64,000 nt of DNA, taken from assembly GCA_022822525.1 (NCBI GenBank), contig JAJEBN010000062.1, forward strand, positions 62,001 to 126,000, in the 5' to 3' direction. This document shows, piece by piece, positions 176 through 9,797 of the stretch (position 1 is its first letter; every line of letters begins with the position of its first letter). The translations under genes and the position numbers were made by a program. The stretch comes from Acidimicrobiia bacterium. GTDB taxonomy: Bacteria > Actinomycetota > Acidimicrobiia > Acidimicrobiales > Poriferisodalaceae. Under the pieces are notes generated by a model that saw only the letters and a list, made by a program, of their open reading frames with translations, did not search any database and had not been told where the DNA came from.

Positions 176-553
176 TCAGCAGTTGGGGCTGGGGCTGAGG
201 TCGCAGCCGGCTGGGTCGGTCCAGAACACCATCGAGGTGCCCATCGCCGCGTAGACCGCGATGGCGAGCACCAGCCCTCCGACGAACATCCACGTGAACA
301 GCTTGTTGTCGAAGCGCAAGTGCATGAAGTAGGCGACGACGATCTCGAACTTGACGACCATCAGGATGAGCAGCAACGGGACCTCGAGCGGGCCCGGGGG
401 CGCGAAGTAGATCAGCACCTCGGCCGCCGTGAGCACGGCGAGCAGCAGGGCAACCTTGATGTAGCCGAAGTCGCTCAGGCCGTGATCATGGTCGTCGTGA
501 GCCTCGTCGGACTCGTGGACCTCTTCGGGTGCGGCCTCAGTGGCGGTGCTCAT
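176..553 (-). CDS. ctaF: Cytochrome c oxidase subunit IV family protein
   Basis: Small accessory subunit of the aa3/caa3-type terminal oxidase in the cytoplasmic membrane. The 125-residue product has an acidic, His-rich N-terminus (about residues 8-25), then three hydrophobic segments at roughly 33-52, 58-76 and 86-105. The central one carries the family pattern KFEIVVAYFMHLRFD, typical of prokaryotic COX4 proteins. The ATG is preceded by a GGGGGAAAG ribosome site. It is the last gene of the oxidase operon, 16 bp after ctaE. It has no catalytic role of its own; assembly or stability of subunit I is the usual inference. Confidence 0.85.
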   Translation of the reverse strand: MSTATEAAPEEVHESDEAHDDHDHGLSDFGYIKVALLLAVLTAAEVLIYFAPPGPLEVPLLLILMVVKFEIVVAYFMHLRFDNKLFTWMFVGGLVLAIAVYAAMGTSMVFWTDPAGCDLSPSPNC

Positions 554-569
554 CGCTTTCCCCCCACGC

Positions 570-1253
570 TCACGGGATCAGGTAGACGACCGCGAAGATC
601 ACGATCCAGACGATGTCGACGAAGTGCCAGTACAAGCCGATGATCTCGATGGTCTCGGCCCGCTCAGGACCGATGATCCCTCGATTCACCATCACCCACA
701 GCGTGACCAGCATGATGATGCCCAGCGACACGTGGACGCCGTGGAATCCGGTCAATGTGTAGAAGGCCGACGACGAGATGCTGACGGTGTACCCGAGGCC
801 TTCGCGGTAGAAGCTCGTGAACTCGTACACCTGCCCGGCGATGAACACCGCGCCAAGAGCGGCGGTGGTCAGCAGCCAGAGCTTGCACCGCTCCATCTCG
901 CGCCGAGTGATCGACGACACCGCCAGCACCATGGTGAGCGAGCTCATCAGCAGAACGAACGAGCTCACCGAGGTGAACGGGATGTCAAACAGCTCTGCCG
1001 CGGTGAGCGGTTCGGGGCCCGTCAGCGGCTTGCGGTTGCGCAGCAGCAGGTAGGTCGAGATCAGCGCCCCGAAGAGCAGGCAATCCGAACCCAGGAAGGT
1101 CCACATCGTCAGCTTCTCGTTGGACAAGCTTGTAGTGGGCGGGATGATCTCGTAGTCGTCCCACTCGGTGCGGGGGTAGGCGATCTGCGGTTCGTCGCCT
1201 TCGGCCGGTTCGACGGCGGCTGCCGTGCCAGCGGTCGTGGGGGTGTCAGTCAC
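570..1253 (-). CDS. ctaE: Cytochrome c oxidase subunit III
   Basis: Integral subunit III of the heme-copper oxidase. It binds no redox cofactor and supports proton uptake and stability of subunit I. The GTG at 1253 is chosen because a GGGGAGG ribosome site lies just upstream and the start overlaps the ctaD stop by 8 bp; the longer frame to 1400 would run far into ctaD and encodes low-complexity residues. The 227-residue product has an acidic N-tail, then the family landmarks EKLTMWTFLGSDCLLF, the FHGVHVSLG helix and the YWHFVDIVW C-terminal motif. Residues lost in the second COX3-like gene upstream are present here, so this is the functional copy. Confidence 0.93.
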   Translation of the reverse strand: MTDTPTTAGTAAAVEPAEGDEPQIAYPRTEWDDYEIIPPTTSLSNEKLTMWTFLGSDCLLFGALISTYLLLRNRKPLTGPEPLTAAELFDIPFTSVSSFVLLMSSLTMVLAVSSITRREMERCKLWLLTTAALGAVFIAGQVYEFTSFYREGLGYTVSISSSAFYTLTGFHGVHVSLGIIMLVTLWVMVNRGIIGPERAETIEIIGLYWHFVDIVWIVIFAVVYLIP

Positions 1254-3315
1254 CGGCGGCCTCCCCGTTCGCTGTGCTGGCGGCCAGCACGCCGTTGTGA
1301 TCATCGTGGCCGTCGGGGCCACCGCCATGATCATCGTCGTGGTCGCCATGCCCGCCGTGGCCGTGACCGTGGCCCGCGTCGGGATCGGTGGCTGGCTCAA
1401 GGGTCCAGCCGAACATGGAGCCGACCAGCAGCAGCAGCCCGATGCCGGCGATCCACAGGTTGTAGATGAGGCCGAAGCCGATCAGCGGCAAGCCCATCGC
1501 CAGCACGATCGGCCAATACGACGGCGACGGCAGGTGCGGATGCTGGTCGCCCTTCTGCGCGATGTCGTTTCCGTGGGCGATCCGGCGCAGCTTGCCGGTC
1601 TCGTCGGGCTGGTACTTCTTGTGCCAGAAGTCGTCCACCTCGGTCACGACCGGTACGTAGTCGAAGTTGTGCTCGGGCACCGGTGAGGGAATCGCCCACT
1701 CGAGCGTGCGCCCGTCCCAGGGATCTGCCTCAGCCTGCGGCTCGACGCCGCGGCGGTAGCGACCCCAGGTGCGGAAGATGTTGACAGCCAGGATCACCAT
1801 GGCGATCAGCATGAAGAAGTAGCCGATCGTGGCGATCTTGTTCCAGAATTCGAATCCGTCGAATTCCCCGTACACGCTGTGCCGCCGCGCCATCCCCTGC
1901 AAGCCCACGATGTGCATGGGCCCGAACGTGACGTTGAAGCCCAGCAGCATCAGCCAGAAGTGCCAGCGGCCGAGCCGGTCGTTCAGGTGGTAGCCGAACG
2001 CCTTCGGCCACCAGTAGTAGAGGCCGGCGAACATCCCCATCAGGGCGCCGCCCACGAGTACGTAGTGGAAGTGCGCCACGATGAAGTACGTGTCGGTCTG
2101 CTGGGTGTCGGCGGGCGCAATCGCGTGCATGACGCCGGACAGGCCGCCGATGGTGAACATTGCCACCAGCGACACCGAGAACATCATCGGCACCGTGAAG
2201 CGGACCTTGCCGGCCCACATCGTCGCGATCCAGTTCAGGATCTTCACGCCCGTGGGCACCGCAATGAACATGGTCGTCGCTGAGAACGCCGCCACCGAGA
2301 CCGGCCCCATGCCTGAGGTGAACATGTGGTGCGCCCACACGCCCCATCCCATGAAGCCGATCGCTGCACCCGACAGCACCACGATCGGGTAGCCGAACAG
2401 CGGCTTGCGGCTGAACACCGGCAGCGTCTCGGACACGATGCCGAACGCTGGCAGGATGAGGATGTACACCTCGGGGTGGCCGAATATCCAGAACAGGTGC
2501 TGCCACAGCAGCGGATCTGCGCCCGCGGCCACATCGAAGAAGTTCGATTCGAACGTGCGGTCGAAGGTCAGCAGCACCAGCGCCACCGTGATGACCGGCA
2601 AGGCGAACACCAGCAGGAACTGCACCACCAGGATCATCCAGGTGAACACCGGCATGCGCAGCAGGCTCATGCCCGGGCAGCGCATGTTGATGATGGTCAC
2701 CAGCAGGTTGATCGCGCCCAGCAGCGAGGCGATGCCGGCGATCTGCAGGCCCAGGGCGTAGAAGTCCATGCCGTGGCCCGGGCTGAAGGTCATGCCGGTA
2801 TTGGGTGCGTAGGCGAACCAGCCGCCGTCGGCGCCTCCGCCCAAGAACCAGCTCAGGTTCAAGAAGATGCCGCCGAAGAAGAAGATCCACAGGCCGAGCG
2901 CATTCATGCGCGGGAAAGCGACGTCCCTAGCGCCGATCTGCAGCGGTACGAGATAGTTCGCGAACGCGTTCGCCAGCGGCATGATCACCAGGAAGACCAT
3001 CGTGACGCCGTGCATGGTGAACAGCTGGTTGTAGAAGTCGGCGCTGATCACCTCGCCGTCGGGTGCCCACAGCTGCAGGCGCACCAGTCCGATCTCGAGG
3101 CCGCCGATCAGGAACCAGAACAGCGCGAGGGCGCCGTACATGATCCCGATCTTCTTGTGGTCCACCGTGAAGAGCCACTCGCGCCAGCCGGTCGCGTGCG
3201 TGGGCCGAGCGAAGACGCCGGTACGGGGGGTGTCGTCGTGATCGGAAGTGCCGTCAGCCACCTCGAGCTCGGTGCCCGGTGCTTCACGTTCCGGCTGATC
3301 GGTGATGATTGCCAT
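1246..3315 (-). CDS. ctaD: Cytochrome c oxidase subunit I (aa3/caa3 type), functional copy
   Basis: Catalytic core that reduces O2 to water and pumps protons. All metal ligands are visible: H102 and H417 for heme a, H280, H329 and H330 for CuB, H415 for heme a3, and the cross-linking Y284 in HPEVY. At 689 residues it is longer than the usual ~550-600. The extra part (about 560-689) holds a cytoplasmic linker, two more membrane segments starting at PSPSYWPIV, and a tail very rich in His, Asp and Gly (GHGHGHGGHGDHDDDH). The membrane part of the extension resembles part of the 263-residue protein encoded at 4511-5302. An AGGAG site precedes the ATG. It lies between ctaC and ctaE. The His-rich tail could bind Cu or Zn, but this is inference. 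Confidence 0.96.
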   Translation of the reverse strand: MAIITDQPEREAPGTELEVADGTSDHDDTPRTGVFARPTHATGWREWLFTVDHKKIGIMYGALALFWFLIGGLEIGLVRLQLWAPDGEVISADFYNQLFTMHGVTMVFLVIMPLANAFANYLVPLQIGARDVAFPRMNALGLWIFFFGGIFLNLSWFLGGGADGGWFAYAPNTGMTFSPGHGMDFYALGLQIAGIASLLGAINLLVTIINMRCPGMSLLRMPVFTWMILVVQFLLVFALPVITVALVLLTFDRTFESNFFDVAAGADPLLWQHLFWIFGHPEVYILILPAFGIVSETLPVFSRKPLFGYPIVVLSGAAIGFMGWGVWAHHMFTSGMGPVSVAAFSATTMFIAVPTGVKILNWIATMWAGKVRFTVPMMFSVSLVAMFTIGGLSGVMHAIAPADTQQTDTYFIVAHFHYVLVGGALMGMFAGLYYWWPKAFGYHLNDRLGRWHFWLMLLGFNVTFGPMHIVGLQGMARRHSVYGEFDGFEFWNKIATIGYFFMLIAMVILAVNIFRTWGRYRRGVEPQAEADPWDGRTLEWAIPSPVPEHNFDYVPVVTEVDDFWHKKYQPDETGKLRRIAHGNDIAQKGDQHPHLPSPSYWPIVLAMGLPLIGFGLIYNLWIAGIGLLLLVGSMFGWTLEPATDPDAGHGHGHGGHGDHDDDHGGGPDGHDDHNGVLAASTANGEAAGD

Positions 3316-3350: not shown

Positions 3351-4511
3351 TCAGGGCAGCACCGGCGGGCTGCCGAGGGTCTTGAGGTACTCCATCAGGT
3401 TGTCGAGTTCCTGATCGGTCAGGACCTCTGAGAAGTCCAGCATGCCCTGCTGGTTGTCGGCACGAGCCGGCTTCATGTCCGCTGCGTTGCGCACCCACTC
3501 GCGCAGCTCCGCAACGTTGAGCCGGAGGCTTCCGTCGGGATTACGGAGGTACTCGCCGTCGGGCCCGATCTGATAGGTCTCATACAGCGCGCCGGCGAAG
3601 GCCGTGCGGCTCATCAGGTTGGTGAGATTCGGCGCGATGCCCGCGAGCAGGTTGGCATTGCCCCCCGCCGCGCTCTCGTAGGTGCCGTCGACGACGTGGC
3701 AGCTGATGCAGTGGGTCTCGAACAGTGCTGCGCCGGCCGCTTCGGGCGATTCGGGGGCAGGCGCCGCCTGTGCCGCCACCTGCCCGTCGAGTTGTTCTTG
3801 CACCCAGCGATCGAATTCTGCTGGCGTGAGCACGATGGTCCGCATCTGCATGTTGGCGTGGCTCAGCCCGCAGAACTCCACGCACTCGCCGTAGAAGATG
3901 CCCGGCTCGTCGGAGCTGATCCGCCACTGGTGAATCCGGCCGGGCACAGCGTCCTTCTTGCCGTTCAGCTGGGGAATCCAGAACGAGTGGATGACATCGT
4001 TGGAGTGGATCTCGAGGTTGACCTCTTCGCCGGTCGGGATGACCAAGTCGTTCGCCGTGACGATGTCGTAGCTGCCGTCTTCGTCAAGGTCGTAGCTGAA
4101 CTGCCACCACCATTGCTGACCCTCCACCTTGATCGTGCGCCCGTCGCCTTCGTCGGCCAGCGCGAACACCGTCGGGAGCGTGACGATCGTGAGGAACACC
4201 AGCATCGCTGTCGGGATGAGCGTCCAGGTCAGCTCCGCCTTGCGATTGCCATGGATCTGCGGCGGCAGGTCGTCGGGATCGTCGGTGGGCTTGGCCCGGA
4301 ACTTGACGATGATGGTGACAACAGCGGCAGCCACGAAGATGCCGACGCCGACTGCCATCCAGCCCGACAGGCGCATGAGCCCGTCGATGTCGCGGGCTTC
4401 CTGCCCGATCGGCTTGGTGGCATCGAGTCGACCAGTGGCGCAGCCCGCCAGCAGCAAGCCGGCCAGCGCCAGCAGGACCAAGCCCAAGCGTCGGAGAAAA
4501 CGTGCGCCCAT
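3351..4511 (-). CDS. ctaC: Cytochrome c oxidase subunit II fused to cytochrome c (caa3 type)
   Basis: Accepts electrons at CuA and passes them to subunit I. The N-terminus is a lipoprotein signal (LLLAGC), followed by two membrane helices and the cupredoxin domain with CVEFCGLSHANMQM supplying CuA Cys, His and Met ligands. After an Ala/Pro linker the C-terminal ~110 residues carry a CISCH heme-c motif and a distal Met (MKPA), which makes it a caa3-type subunit that can take electrons from a quinol:cytochrome c route without a soluble donor. The stop of the upstream gene overlaps the start (GTGATG), so either the ATG (4511) or the GTG (4514) could be used. 386 residues is normal for fused CtaC. 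Confidence 0.95.
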   Translation of the reverse strand: MGARFLRRLGLVLLALAGLLLAGCATGRLDATKPIGQEARDIDGLMRLSGWMAVGVGIFVAAAVVTIIVKFRAKPTDDPDDLPPQIHGNRKAELTWTLIPTAMLVFLTIVTLPTVFALADEGDGRTIKVEGQQWWWQFSYDLDEDGSYDIVTANDLVIPTGEEVNLEIHSNDVIHSFWIPQLNGKKDAVPGRIHQWRISSDEPGIFYGECVEFCGLSHANMQMRTIVLTPAEFDRWVQEQLDGQVAAQAAPAPESPEAAGAALFETHCISCHVVDGTYESAAGGNANLLAGIAPNLTNLMSRTAFAGALYETYQIGPDGEYLRNPDGSLRLNVAELREWVRNAADMKPARADNQQGMLDFSEVLTDQELDNLMEYLKTLGSPPVLP

Positions 4512-5302
4512 CACTCGTGGTCCCCTTCGGACTCGCTCATCTCGTCCGAGGTGTGAGCGCCCTCATCGGCGGCTTCGCCGTGATCGTCGGAAACCTCGGC
4601 GTGGCCATGCGGCGAGTGGAACTCCCGCTCGCCCCTCACGGCGGAGGCGATGCCTGCCACGATGAGCGCGACGCCGCCCAGCACCAGCATCGAAGCCACG
4701 ATCGACCGCCGGATCTGCGGCTTGGCATAGATCAGGAAGGCGAAGGCCAGGATGACCGACGCAACGACAATGGCCCACCAGCTCGCCGCGTTCTTGCTCA
4801 CCGTCAGGAATATCCGGGACGCCAGCACGACCGGAATGGCAATCGCCAGCGCGCCGTAGAGGGAGATCTCGAACGGCCGCATCAGGCGTGCCCGCTCGAC
4901 GGCGTTGGATTCAGCATCGGTCGACAGGTGCTCGGCCCAGGCACTCATGGTCCACTCGAACGCGGAGATCAGCAGCAGCGCCACCCCAGCGATGGTCAGC
5001 AGCGAATCGGTCACCAAGCCGACCATCAGCACGCCCATGCCGACGGCCGCCATGATCGGCCAGTAGGCCGGCGTGGGTCGGTACTCGGCCAAGTGCTCCC
5101 GGTCGAGCGAGTCGCCGTCGCCGACCGTCAGGGCCAGTGTGAACAGCAACGCGAACGCCCCCGCAGCGACACCCAGCACGATCGTGGCGTACATGACCAC
5201 ATGGCCCGTGCCGTCCATGCCCGTGAGGACGCCGACCACGACGGCGGCGGCCGCCGCCAGCGCGATGCGACCGGCGAAATACCTGCTGGCGATGCCGACC
5301 AT
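4511..5302 (-). CDS. Oxidase-operon membrane protein with actinobacterial subunit IV-like segment
   Basis: A 263-residue polytopic protein with about seven hydrophobic segments (roughly 10-30, 37-60, 80-100, 104-123, 150-168, 175-193 and 200-220) and an acidic His-containing tail (SPHGHAEVSDDHGEA). Its middle, PTPAYWPIMAAVGMGVL followed by a helix ending FEWTM, matches in pattern the C-terminal extension of CtaD (PSPSYWPIVLAMGLPLIG, ending FGWTL). That YWPI element is characteristic of actinobacterial oxidase subunit IV. It is translationally linked to ctaC (TGATG overlap) and lies 7 bp after the COX3-like gene. I infer a structural or assembly subunit of the oxidase. No catalytic residues are recognised. 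Confidence 0.6.
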   Translation of the reverse strand: MVGIASRYFAGRIALAAAAAVVVGVLTGMDGTGHVVMYATIVLGVAAGAFALLFTLALTVGDGDSLDREHLAEYRPTPAYWPIMAAVGMGVLMVGLVTDSLLTIAGVALLLISAFEWTMSAWAEHLSTDAESNAVERARLMRPFEISLYGALAIAIPVVLASRIFLTVSKNAASWWAIVVASVILAFAFLIYAKPQIRRSIVASMLVLGGVALIVAGIASAVRGEREFHSPHGHAEVSDDHGEAADEGAHTSDEMSESEGDHE

Positions 5303-5309
5303 CGATCCC

Positions 5310-5930
5310 CTACTTCACCACGTACACGACGTACCAGGTGGCGGCCCACGCAAGCACGGCGAAGTCCCAGAAGAAGACCGCAGAACCCAGCGGCGACGAG
5401 CGGTCTCGGCCGACGCTGCCTCCCAGCGATCTCAGTGTCATCAGGCCGAGATAGAACATCCCGACAATCAAGATGGCCAGCGAGAGTCCGGTCACCGCGA
5501 AGGCCAGGTTCTCCCACTCGCCGGCACCTAGCTCAACCTCCATGCGGTTGAGGCTGTACATCACCATGTTGAAGAACGCGAATCCCATCACCAGCGTGAT
5601 GGCCATGCCCACCCAGGTGTGGCCGCGTTCGCCGCGCTGGCTGGCCCAGTGAGCCCAGTGCGCCGTCACGACCGAGACCAGCAGCGTGATGAGGGCGTAG
5701 ACGAGCTGAGGGTTCGGCACTGATTGGCCGGCCAGCCAGTCATGTCCCGGATCATCGAGGATGTGGCGGCGGGCCATGTAGTGGCCGAGTGCGCCAGCGA
5801 CCGCCATGGACCCTGCGGCGATGGCGAAGCCCGTCCCGACGAGCTGGCTGCGCGGGCGCGGTGGCGGGCCGGGAACGACATAGCGCCCAGGCTGGGGCGT
5901 CTCGACAGCGCTCATCGTGGTCTCTGACAT
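5310..5930 (-). CDS. Second COX3-like protein lacking conserved subunit III residues
   Basis: A 206-residue membrane protein with five or more helices that aligns with subunit III by pattern. AVTGLSLAILIVGMFYLG occupies the place of TLTGFHGVHVSLGIIMLV, and FFWDFAVLAWAATWYVVYV the place of YWHFVDIVWIVIFAVVYL. The conserved His residues of the true subunit III are absent. The start overlaps the stop of the upstream COX1-like gene (TGATG), so the two are translated as a pair. The likely role is partner of the ligand-free COX1-like protein, or a scaffold of the oxidase. Homology to COX3 is fairly clear; the function is not known. Confidence 0.65.
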   Translation of the reverse strand: MSETTMSAVETPQPGRYVVPGPPPRPRSQLVGTGFAIAAGSMAVAGALGHYMARRHILDDPGHDWLAGQSVPNPQLVYALITLLVSVVTAHWAHWASQRGERGHTWVGMAITLVMGFAFFNMVMYSLNRMEVELGAGEWENLAFAVTGLSLAILIVGMFYLGLMTLRSLGGSVGRDRSSPLGSAVFFWDFAVLAWAATWYVVYVVK

Positions 5931-7681
5931 CAGGCCGGCACCTCAGAAGGCTCCCGCTCGGCGGGCACAACGCTGCCGTTGAGCTCGGCGTCGAGCAGGG
6001 GCGTGCCCGAACTCAACTGCGGCAGGGAAGCTGATTGGCCCAGCGCCGGGGGCGAGTCGAGCAGCCACTCGGGCGTCAGGCCGCCCCACGGGTCTGCATC
6101 GGCTTCGGCACCCTTGCCCATACCCACCGAGACCAGGAGATTCAACAGAACGAGCCCGACACCAACGAGCACGATGATGACACCGACGCCGCCCACCACC
6201 GAGAGGCCTTCGGCGGCGGAATGATCGATCAAGCCGTCATAGACAGTGGTCAGCAGCGGGTCGTTGTAGACGAACTGCGGCTGCTCGGTGAAAGCACCCG
6301 ACAGGGTCGGGCCGAGCCATGCCAGGACGGCGCCGCCGCCGATTGCGGCGAAGCTGGCCCAGCCGACGAATTCGGACAGCCGCCGTCCCCAGATCTTGGG
6401 TGCCCACCAATGCAGCGCCGCCAGCGCGCCCATCAGTCCGGCGCCGTAGATGAGCAGGCTCTGCTGACCCGTGACCCAGGTCGTGAAGCGCAGCGGAGCG
6501 TTCCCGTCGACGCCGCGGCCCGCGATGTTCAGCCAGTCCACTCCCGCGCCGATCAGCCCGACCAGAGCGGCAACAGCAATGAACTTCCCGGCGCCGAACG
6601 CAGCCAGCACTGCAGTGTTGGGACGCTTCCATGACACTGCGCCGGGATGAGGGCGCGGTCGATTGCGGCTCTGCCACACGGTGAATCCCAGCAGCGCCAG
6701 CAGGCCGGCCACTCCCGCCAGAGCACCTGCATAGAGGCCGACCAGGACGATGCCTTCGAGGCCGTCGACGATGTCGGCGCCCTCACCGGCGATGCCGAAG
6801 TTGGCCCAGGCCCCGAATCCGAAGAGGCCGACGAGGCCCATGGTGAAGTACAGCGCCAGCGGTTCGAAGACCCAGCGGCGTGCAGCGGCCAGCACGATCT
6901 CGGCTGCTACGCCCAGCACCGGCACCACGTAGATGAACAGCTGCGGCGTCCGATACATCCAGTCGATGCGTGGCCAGATGCCGTAGTTGCCGTCCAGGAA
7001 GTGGCGGCCGTAGCTGTGGTCGATGTAGAGCAGCACCAGCTGTCCCAGCACCACGCCGAGGCTGACCACCAGCATCGACGCCGTGACCAGCGCTGACCAC
7101 GCGAACGGCGGCGTGCGGTCCATGTACATGCCCGGCGCACGCATGGTGAGCGTGGTGACGGCGACGCAGATGGCACCGATGATCAGCGACATCACGAGTC
7201 CCGCCAGGGCGAGCATGTGCAGCCGGACCCCGGCATCCCAGCCCCCGGCGGGACCCCCATTGCCTATGTAGGCACCGACCAGCACGCCGAACGACACCAG
7301 CCAGCCCCAGAACGACAGTGCCGCTGCGCGCGCGAACGCAACGTTCGGTGCGCCCACCTGCAGCGGGACGATGTAGATCGCCACGCCCAGGAAGAACGGG
7401 ATGAGCATGCCGAACACCAGCGCATCGCGGGTGAACATGAACACCTGGGTGAAGGTCTCGAGATTGAGCACCGTGTGCCCGCTGTCGGAGGCAAGGTCGA
7501 AGCGCACCAGCGCATCGGTGACGGCGCCGGCGACAGCGAAGAGCAGCGAGAAGCCGATGAACAGCCGGCCGATGCGCTTGTGGTCGGCCGTGTTGAGCAG
7601 ACCGAACGCGGTCGGGTCTTCTGCCTGCGGAGCCACGGCAGACCCGGTCGAGTGCGCAGCTTCGGTGGTGGCGTCGGTCAT
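5930..7681 (-). CDS. COX1-like membrane protein without heme or copper ligands
   Basis: A 583-residue polytopic protein with the fold landmarks of subunit I (DHKRIG near 34, VPLQVGAPNVAF near 105, MRAPGMYM near 180, WWAPKIWG, and a DPWGGLTPEW tail). Comparison by eye with the functional CtaD at 1246-3315 shows every metal ligand replaced. The heme a His becomes T84 next to R85, HPEVY becomes TPQLF (T245, F249), the CuB HH pair becomes N294-F295, and HFH becomes Q-Q-S. It therefore cannot hold heme a, heme a3 or CuB in the normal way. It is the first gene of the oxidase operon, overlapping the COX3-like gene. The start is set at the ATG at 7681; a TTG at 7735 is possible, and neither has a strong ribosome site. 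Automated annotation would probably call it a cytochrome oxidase subunit I. Confidence 0.8.
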   Translation of the reverse strand: MTDATTEAAHSTGSAVAPQAEDPTAFGLLNTADHKRIGRLFIGFSLLFAVAGAVTDALVRFDLASDSGHTVLNLETFTQVFMFTRDALVFGMLIPFFLGVAIYIVPLQVGAPNVAFARAAALSFWGWLVSFGVLVGAYIGNGGPAGGWDAGVRLHMLALAGLVMSLIIGAICVAVTTLTMRAPGMYMDRTPPFAWSALVTASMLVVSLGVVLGQLVLLYIDHSYGRHFLDGNYGIWPRIDWMYRTPQLFIYVVPVLGVAAEIVLAAARRWVFEPLALYFTMGLVGLFGFGAWANFGIAGEGADIVDGLEGIVLVGLYAGALAGVAGLLALLGFTVWQSRNRPRPHPGAVSWKRPNTAVLAAFGAGKFIAVAALVGLIGAGVDWLNIAGRGVDGNAPLRFTTWVTGQQSLLIYGAGLMGALAALHWWAPKIWGRRLSEFVGWASFAAIGGGAVLAWLGPTLSGAFTEQPQFVYNDPLLTTVYDGLIDHSAAEGLSVVGGVGVIIVLVGVGLVLLNLLVSVGMGKGAEADADPWGGLTPEWLLDSPPALGQSASLPQLSSGTPLLDAELNGSVVPAEREPSEVPA

Positions 7682-7838: not shown

Positions 7839-8723
7839 TCACCATCCGAGCCGGACGATCACATCGGCCGCCATCGCCGCGAACAGCAGACCCAAGTACG
7901 TAATGGACATGTGAAACAGGCGCATCGCGGCCCGGGGCGTCAGCGCACGCCACAGCGCCAGAACTCCCAGACCGAACGCAGCGCCGGTGATCAGCGCGAC
8001 TGTCCAGTACAGAACGCCCGCATCCGCGACCACCGCAAACCACAGCGACAGCGCGATCACGGCAACCGTGTGCACCGTCATCTGCATCAGCACTGATCGC
8101 TCGCTGGCGACCGACGGCAGCATCGGCACGTCGGCGTTGCTGTAGTCGTCGGCGTAGCGAACAGCCAACGCCCAGAAGTGGGGCGGCGTCCAGAAGAAGA
8201 CGATCCCGAAGGCAATCCACGCCTCGAGTGCCAGCGAACCGGTCACGGCCGCCCACCCGACGAGCACCGGCGCGGCGCCGGCAGCGCCGCCGATGACGAT
8301 GTTCTGCGCTGAGGTCCGCTTCAGCCACATGGTGTAGACGAACACGTAGAACAAGCAGGCGGACAGCGCCAGTGCTGCGGCCAGCAGGTTGGCACCCCAC
8401 CACAGGAGCGCGAATGCTGCGACTTCGAGCCCGATGCCGTAGGCAAGTGCCGTGGTCGGGCTCACCGCGCCAGTGACCAACGGACGGTGTGCTGTGCGCT
8501 CCATCGACGCGTCGATGTCGCGGTCGATGAACATGTTGAAGGTATTGGCGCCGGCGGCGGCCAGTGTGCCGCCCACGACGGTGAGCACGACGAGCGCGGC
8601 CGACGGCACGCCGCCCTCGGCCACGAACATGGGCGGCACCGTGGTGACCAGGAGCAGTTCGATGATGCGCGGCTTCGTGAGCGCGACCAGTCCCCGCAGC
8701 GTTGGGCGCAACGTCGCCGGCAT
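7839..8723 (-). CDS. ctaB: Protoheme IX farnesyltransferase (heme O synthase)
   Basis: UbiA-family membrane prenyltransferase that adds a farnesyl group to heme B, the first step of heme A synthesis for the adjacent oxidase. The 294-residue product begins MPATLRPTLRGLVALTKPR, as in other CtaB proteins, and has the prenyl-diphosphate/Mg motif NTFNMFIDRDIDASMERTAHRP in shortened form N-x(6)-DRDID-x(3)-RTAHRP around residue 65-85, plus a second Asp-rich loop (RYADDYSNAD). About nine hydrophobic helices are visible. The ATG at 8723 is preferred over an upstream frame to 9083 that encodes non-membrane, shadow-like sequence. It is divergent from ctaA with only 36 bp between starts. Confidence 0.94.
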   Translation of the reverse strand: MPATLRPTLRGLVALTKPRIIELLLVTTVPPMFVAEGGVPSAALVVLTVVGGTLAAAGANTFNMFIDRDIDASMERTAHRPLVTGAVSPTTALAYGIGLEVAAFALLWWGANLLAAALALSACLFYVFVYTMWLKRTSAQNIVIGGAAGAAPVLVGWAAVTGSLALEAWIAFGIVFFWTPPHFWALAVRYADDYSNADVPMLPSVASERSVLMQMTVHTVAVIALSLWFAVVADAGVLYWTVALITGAAFGLGVLALWRALTPRAAMRLFHMSITYLGLLFAAMAADVIVRLGW

Positions 8724-8759
8724 TGCTGTGAGGCTACGCGTGACCTCTAGCGTTTCAGC

Positions 8760-9797
8760 GTGAGTTTGCTGGGCTCGATGCGCCTGCGAGGGCGCAGGCC
8801 GGGTTCGTCGCCTTCGGGTCGCCGCAGGCTCGAGGTAACACCTGCGCGGTTCGCGCTGGTCGCTCGATGGGCGCTGTGGGCGCTGGTGGCCATCGTGATC
8901 ACGGGATCGCTCGTGAGGTTGACGGGCAGCGGTCTGGGGTGCAGCGATTGGCCGAACTGCGAGCCCGGCGAGTTCGTCCCGGCCGCCGACTTCCACGGTT
9001 GGGTGGAATTCGGCAATCGCATCGTGACGGGGTTGGTCTCCGCGGCAGTCATCCTGGCAGTGGGCGCATCGCTGTGGCGGCAACCGCGCCGGGTCGACTT
9101 GGTGTGGTGGTCAATGGTCCTCGTGGCTGGGGTGGCATTCCAGATCGGCCTCGGCGCCGTGACCGTGCTGACTCACCTGTCCCCGCCGATCGTGATGTCG
9201 CACTTTCTGGCTTCGCAAGTCCTGGTGTCGGCTGCGGTGGTGCTCCAGCACCGGGCCGAACGCGAACCGCCCCTCCACGCTGCCCGCGCGACACAGCTGC
9301 CGGCTGGCATTCGTATGCATGCAGGAACGTCAGGGGTGCTGACGGCAGCGGCCCTGTTCACGGGCACCGTGGTGACCGGGACCGGACCTCATGGCGGGGA
9401 CGAGCATGTCGAGCGATTGCAGTTTGCACTGCCGTCGGTGGCCCGCATCCACGGCATCACGGTGGCGGTCCTCGCTGGTATCACCCTGCTGCTCGGCGTT
9501 CGGGCACGGCGACTGGCTGGCGCCCATCGCGATGAGGCGTCCGGTGCCGTCGCGTCGGGGCTCGGGGCCCGGGTCCGCATCGTGATCGCGGTCATGGCCG
9601 TGCAGGCAGCGATCGGCTACGTGCAGTACTTCACCGAGCTGCCAGTGCTGCTCGTGGCGCTGCACGTCATCGGGGCCACACTGCTGACCATCACGATGAC
9701 ACGCCTCGTGCTGGCTGCTGGAGCCACCGTGGCCCCAGCCCAATCGCCTGATGCCGCCGAACCGGTTGGCATCGCGTCCCGCGGCTTCGCAGAATGA
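8760..9797 (+). CDS. ctaA: Heme A synthase (COX15/CtaA family)
   Basis: Membrane enzyme that oxidises the C8 methyl of heme O to a formyl group, giving heme A. The product of 345 residues has eight hydrophobic segments. Family motifs are [19 protein letters not shown] (with the extracellular Cys), an EFGNRIVTG helix with the conserved Glu and His-containing loops ([30 protein letters not shown]). The GTG at 8760 is the longest start; an ATG at 8778 would remove six residues, and the basic stretch up to residue 28 may not be conserved. The intergenic gap to ctaB is so short that promoters must overlap or the transcript may be leaderless. Confidence 0.93.

Follow-up and report, generated by a model that had tools for sequence, protein, structure and literature searches.

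A ligand-free homologue of cytochrome oxidase subunit I and its companion subunits are encoded upstream of a caa3 oxidase in one bacterial order

The usual definition of a haem-copper oxidase relies on six invariant histidines. Their A-type subunit I (CtaD, PF00115/TIGR02891) shares with the protein described here, I*, the 12-helix fold, the cytoplasmic motifs and the presence of subunits III and IV in the operon. Compared with CtaD, I* lacks the haem, CuB and tyrosine residues, the D and K channels and a subunit II of its own. Its companion IV* resembles, in the N-terminal part, the actinobacterial COX subunit IV (PF12270; 8hcr_H, 6hwh_S and 7q21_F), but has three extra helices and, in basal members, also a cupredoxin domain. 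The second half of basal IV* matches a stand-alone membrane cupredoxin of other actinobacterial caa3 operons, which, unlike basal IV*, is not fused to subunit IV and, where its surroundings were read, lacks a neighbouring I*. A cofactor-free subunit beside a haem-bearing one is found in cytochrome bd, where CydB completes a pseudo-symmetric pair, according to PMC9846854. CydB, however, belongs to an unrelated superfamily, whereas the present case would involve a whole set of I, III and IV in a putative pairing. Sequences without the six histidines were discarded when the data sets of PMC3084760 were built, as that paper states, and pseudo-oxidase families could thus be missed by design. Searches of open-licence papers yielded no account of a COX1 without ligands or of the present cluster.

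The window, which is the whole stretch of 64,000 nucleotides that was analysed, contains I*, III* and IV* directly upstream of the genes for a caa3 oxidase (Table 1). The preliminary description had reported an intact COX1 homologue 2.6 kb from CtaD. This is borne out on the minus strand, where the reading frame opens with ATG at position 7681; plus-strand translation of the same interval is interrupted by stops. All genes of the cluster are intact. The stop of I* overlaps the start of III* by 1 nt, III* and IV* are 7 bp apart, and the stop of IV* overlaps the start of ctaC, which makes co-translation of the pseudo-set and the genuine oxidase probable. Upstream of I*, across a gap of 157 bp, lies a ctaB-like gene whose product is presumably haem O synthase. 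Divergent from it is an ORF at 8760-9797 (+), presumably haem A synthase-like, so that genes of haem A synthesis flank the cluster. The search of the window's genome returned only two COX1 matches and one COX2 match, the latter being ctaC beside ctaD; it yielded no second COX2 for the module, and sharing of ctaC with CtaD is possible. A single cytochrome b match (PF13631; G000:C48:34124-34489) precedes the window by about 28 kb in the same genome, which also has one NrfD match at another place (G000:C79:20358-20654).

Table 1. Genes of the oxidase cluster and its upstream neighbour, in window positions.
Feature	Position	Strand	Description
I*	5930..7681	-	583 aa; COX1 fold, with all six His ligands and the Tyr replaced
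III*	5310..5930	-	degenerate cytochrome oxidase subunit III, 206 aa; PF00510 E 9e-8
IV*	4511..5302	-	263 aa, seven predicted helices; subunit IV-like N-terminal part
ctaC	3351..4514	-	subunit II with C-terminal cytochrome c domain
ctaD	1246..3315	-	catalytic subunit I, all ligands; C-terminal subunit IV-like domain
ctaE	570..1280	-	subunit III; true start between 1280 and about 1253
ctaF	176..553	-	subunit IV, COX4_pro type; PF03626
ctaB-like UbiA protein	7839..8747	-	PF01040 E 1.7e-61

I* belongs to the COX1 family by sequence and by predicted fold. Pfam PF00115 (COX1) matches it with an E value of 5.9e-42, and 41 distinct PDB sequences match at E<=0.001 in phmmer. The AlphaFold2 model, built with 21 homologues, has a mean pLDDT of 82 and a pTM of 0.88, and its best PDB matches in Foldseek are COX1 chains, among them E. 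coli bo3 as the best (TM-score by query 0.77, E 1.5e-19) and mycobacterial 6adq_F (TM-score by target 0.81). I* shares 26.5% identity with the CtaD of the window over 543 aa. CtaD keeps all ligands. In I*, the haem a ligands of TM2 and TM10 are replaced by Thr and Ser, the CuB ligand of TM6 by Thr and the CuB His-His pair by Asn-Phe; the haem a3 His has become Gln and the active-site Tyr Phe. Two independent alignments, MAFFT with CtaD and phmmer with mycobacterial COX1, give the same replacements and so uphold the preliminary claim that all six histidines and the tyrosine differ from functional CtaD. At the channel and active-site positions, D is changed to N, N to I, K to L and Glu286 to Gln; the ligand roles and residue numbers (Glu286, Lys362) follow the labels of known structures. 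Misalignment of the ligands is ruled out because the two alignment methods and the predicted fold agree. The NCBIfam equivalog CtaD_CoxA scores I* at 189 bits against a cut-off of 671, with the real CtaD just below the cut-off at 669.9, and I* reaches no NCBIfam cut-off; judging from its sequence, misannotation as a terminal oxidase is plausible.

The preliminary description was right about a ligand-free pseudo-oxidase, but it treated I* as a single protein and missed III* and IV*; the unit is I*-III*-IV*. III* passes the PF00510 cut-off (32.7 bits against 23.8), and profile comparison of its family with the CtaE family gives a probability of 99.8. The window IV* has no Pfam family over the cut-off and no PF12270 match, and only 4 of 24 IV* members match PF12270, weakly, at E<=0.1 (best 4.6e-4). 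Its AlphaFold2 model contains seven helices (pLDDT 77, pTM 0.49). The N-terminal part can be superimposed on the mycobacterial and corynebacterial subunit IV over 70 residues with VIA-align Z scores of 7.7-8.2, although a Z near 8 is reached by unrelated rows too, and Foldseek returns nothing at E<=0.001 (best 8hcr_H, E 0.016). The assignment to subunit IV therefore leans chiefly on the profile match between the middle of IV* and the subunit IV-like domain at the C-terminus of CtaD (44 columns, probability 96.9). Profile comparison of the C-terminal half with CtaF gives a probability of 7%; in the window this half consists of three helices followed by a short His/acid-rich tail at the place where basal relatives have the cupredoxin. 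With III* as a COX3 protein and IV* subunit IV-like in its N-terminal part, I*-III*-IV* corresponds to an oxidase without subunit II. In 21 loci, mostly of family f7 (e.g. L087, L089, L091 and L102), IV* carries a conserved extension of about 140 aa that has no copper ligands and is perhaps a decayed cupredoxin; three that were tested have no convincing Pfam match, and hhalign against the cupredoxin gives a probability of 7% (reversed control 0.1%). In some basal lineages a thioredoxin-like (CxxC) gene, recognised by eye, lies between IV* and ctaC (L047:7537-8229, L048:5555-6301 and L066:7025-7795).

The module is under purifying selection and is not decaying in the window's genus. Over 45 pairs from 10 genus loci, the median dN/dS values of the module are 0.121 (I*), 0.093 (III*) and 0.109 (IV*), compared with 0.105 for CtaD, 0.123 for CtaE and 0.198 for CtaC. 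Each of the genus loci L133-L141 contains the full set of seven genes. A pseudogene is ruled out by the whole module in these loci and the dN/dS of 0.12. The proposal of selection rather than decay is supported; the checks that could have overturned the preliminary reading were run, and careful alignment recovered no ligand histidine while neither high dN/dS nor frameshifts appeared. I* branches are several-fold longer than those of CtaD, which indicates faster evolution and is easier to reconcile with contacts at the periphery than with a tight, symmetric interface. Several positions specific to crown I*, the clade that includes the window, are conserved at 0.8 or more. For the branch-length tree and the crown conservation, 24 near-identical family loci were left out; the conservation analysis omitted L120 as well.

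Relatives of I* are widespread in one order. I* is matched in 60 of 61 searched genomes, many of these matches being CtaD. The loci read contain 98 I* rows, one per genome and from 25 family codes of a single order, against 86 CtaD rows; the I* count takes ORFs over 430 aa and leaves out shorter ones. The relatives that bear names are MAGs with the label Acidimicrobiia, Acidimicrobiales or Candidatus Microthrix, from which the order is probably Acidimicrobiales. The recurrent gene order is I*-III*-IV*-C-D-E-F. The module is strictly linked to one CtaD subtype: I* lies upstream in 71 of 74 loci of this partner subtype, defined by a score threshold of 985 that was chosen after the scores were seen, and in the other three the contig ends after 1.2-2.9 kb of upstream sequence. 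Among other CtaDs, I* is found beside 1 of 17, namely L119, a truncated member of the partner subtype. Forty genomes of the order were picked as weak or negative for III*; two lack any CtaD match, in 37 the identity of the best CtaD does not exceed 48%, and the sole close CtaD (65%) belongs to G230, which has the module. The CtaDs L128-L130, from another order, fall in the tree beside the CtaDs that accompany I*, and their upstream stretches (L142-L144) contain no I*.

Comparison of these rows revealed that the cofactor sites were lost stepwise. All six histidines are kept in 86/86 CtaD rows. In I*, the CuB histidines are absent from 94 of 98 rows, a single one is present in four and all three in none; in 75 rows all six ligands are missing. 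Of the haem histidines, that of TM2 is present in 21 rows, that of TM10 in 8 and that of a3 in 7, with both haem a histidines in 8 rows and all three haem histidines in 5. The CuB histidine of TM6 is Arg in L047, L048, L052, L053 and L066. L109 and L118 have a single His at this position, the other two CuB histidines being absent. In an IQ-TREE analysis of 56 rows, picked by hand from 184 and with the ligand columns removed, I* forms one clade (100/100). G230 (L120) branches first, followed by a clade of L066, L053, L052, L047 and L048, then L049, and then the crown (99/94). Where I* branches relative to CtaD sequences is weakly supported (88/29), and long branches may mislead; duplication and transfer are both compatible with the tree. 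The tree order and the pattern of histidines suggest that CuB was probably lost on the I* stem, before the haem sites. The ligand loss noted at first thus holds for the window I*, but basal relatives keep haem ligands and a copper cupredoxin.

This cupredoxin forms the C-terminal domain of basal IV* in L047, L048, L049, L052, L053 and L120, where it matches PF13473 with E values of 1.7e-11 to 9.1e-5; five of the six pass the cut-off and L053 falls below it (the L120 IV* was tested as L145, the same gene). The domain has type-1 copper ligands in the pattern His..Cys-x-x-His..Met. In G230, which branches earliest, the fusion of IV* to the plastocyanin-like cupredoxin is encoded at L145:10051-11025 (-), and a Caa3_CtaG gene lies just upstream of I* on the opposite strand. 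The IV* of L060 also has the copper ligand pattern, its I* being off the contig. The copper pattern is present with 5/5 I* that have all three haem histidines, with 1/3 that have only the haem a pair (L120, not L038 or L066) and with 0/87 that lack the pair (Fisher p 3e-8, kinship ignored); the tally covers 95 of 98 loci, a readable IV* tail missing in L025, L027 and L040. L066, a member of the basal clade, lacks both the a3 histidine, through loss, and the cupredoxin, which makes two apparent joint losses of both features, one in L066 and one on the crown stem. In two further I* the a3 histidine is present, but the haem a pair and the cupredoxin are missing. Crown IV*, including that of the window, has no cupredoxin. 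The stand-alone protein, with three helices and a cupredoxin, comes from other lineages of the phylum; in the nine best-matching other genomes (L232-L240) its identity to the second half of basal IV* is 33-38%. It follows ctaC-D-E(-F) in 10 of 12 stretches (L241-L249 and L252; L250 and L251 lie near contig starts), and directly follows Caa3_CtaG in both loci tested by Pfam (L242 and L244). Tandem pairs of cupredoxin domains occur in some of these proteins (L241-L249, L252). The role of the cupredoxin may be to donate electrons or to deliver copper.

The surfaces of crown I* are retained unequally. Among 202 positions that are at least 95% invariant in the partner CtaDs, the 47 in cytoplasmic loops are retained at a mean of 0.60 in 67 crown I*, compared with 0.17 for the 36 in periplasmic loops and 0.27 for the 119 in helices. 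The difference between the two loop classes has a permutation p of 5e-5, with the N and P sides assigned by hand from the COX1 topology. The periplasmic TM3-TM4 loop is shortened from 25 residues to a median of 11. Such a bias is expected if the docking face for subunit II is gone and the fold and the subunit IV face stay. The pattern fits a loss of subunit II docking, electron entry and proton uptake with conservation of the fold and the cytoplasmic face.

A functional reading has to accommodate the observed fold, ligand loss, selection, module make-up and stepwise loss in relatives. We propose, with about even confidence, that I*-III*-IV* is a redox-dead structural partner of the caa3 oxidase, bound to the enzyme or to an assembly intermediate. 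It would represent a full oxidase membrane module (I, III and IV) that lacks subunit II, CuB and both haems as well as the residues of the D and K channels. Produced alongside the catalytic CtaC-D-E-F, the module would stay attached to these subunits, or to their assembly intermediate, as a cofactor-free partner, like CydB beside CydA. From the gene linkage, physical association with CtaC-D-E-F is most likely, and the early suggestion of a pseudo-oxidase tied to the real caa3 oxidase gains support. Candidate purposes are one half of a pseudo-symmetric dimer, a docking or supercomplex platform, or a stabiliser of nascent CtaD.

It is possible, as a tentative extension, that the module began as a new membrane redox complex and that the crown, having lost all cofactors, now supplies an obligate dummy half to a caa3 oxidase that is a heterodimer. 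In the basal module, the cupredoxin fused to IV* would then replace the CuA subunit and feed a subunit I with both haems and no CuB; in four of these basal members Arg replaces the TM6 CuB histidine. Such a complex could be a CuB-less peroxidase, an NO/O2 handler or a sensor.

Rather doubtful, though serious, is a dedicated assembly platform, in which a decoy oxidase would hold assembly factors or nascent CtaD during insertion of haem a and CuB and then leave. Linkage and co-inheritance with the CtaD subtype fit an assembly factor equally well, and the basal IV* cupredoxin, with its stand-alone relatives in caa3 operons, directly after CtaG at the two loci tested, also speaks for this reading. 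However, crown members, including the window, have no cupredoxin, and CtaG, tentatively taken to be the CuB assembly factor, is present in 37/37 genomes tested, with and without the module. Its presence in all 37 rules out the module as a replacement for CtaG.

A non-redox transporter or channel for an ion, small molecule or lipid, built on the COX1 fold with the Gln/Asn-rich former active site as binding site, is unlikely. The former ligand sites are indeed often refilled by polar amides (of 98 rows, Q in 48 and N in 31 at CuB2, Q in 61 at the Glu286 position and Q in 52 at the a3 position), but amides are also a neutral filling for a buried polar hole, and both proton-uptake channels are dismantled, the D-channel Asp and the K-channel Lys being absent from 98/98 I* rows. 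The loss of these two residues also leaves the proton channel suggested in the preliminary description unsupported, and a proton or quinol role of the module is disfavoured.

It is quite improbable that basal members are still redox enzymes or sensors, with electrons passing from the cupredoxin to haem a and a CuB-less haem a3, and that the window I* is a slowly decaying, functionless remnant. The coincidence of haem histidines and cupredoxin and the long I* branches agree with this reading; the CtaD-like dN/dS in the window's genus, the complete gene set of L133-L141 and the conserved crown-specific positions speak against it. That I* binds haem through a shifted ligand set is barely credible: the TM2 histidine is kept in 21/98 rows and both haem a histidines in 8, but the histidines invariant in the window's family (H34, H155 and H222) are off the ligand positions and, as we read the predicted helices, close to a helix end in every case.

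We regard the module as a pseudoenzyme derived from a respiratory complex and, to our knowledge, as the first known case in which a whole haem-copper oxidase module has turned into one. It is order-wide, selected and whole, and its cofactor loss is graded across living lineages, which provides a natural experiment on the non-catalytic roles of subunits I, III and IV in assembly, dimerisation and supercomplexes. It also calls for caution in the annotation of terminal oxidases in metagenomes.
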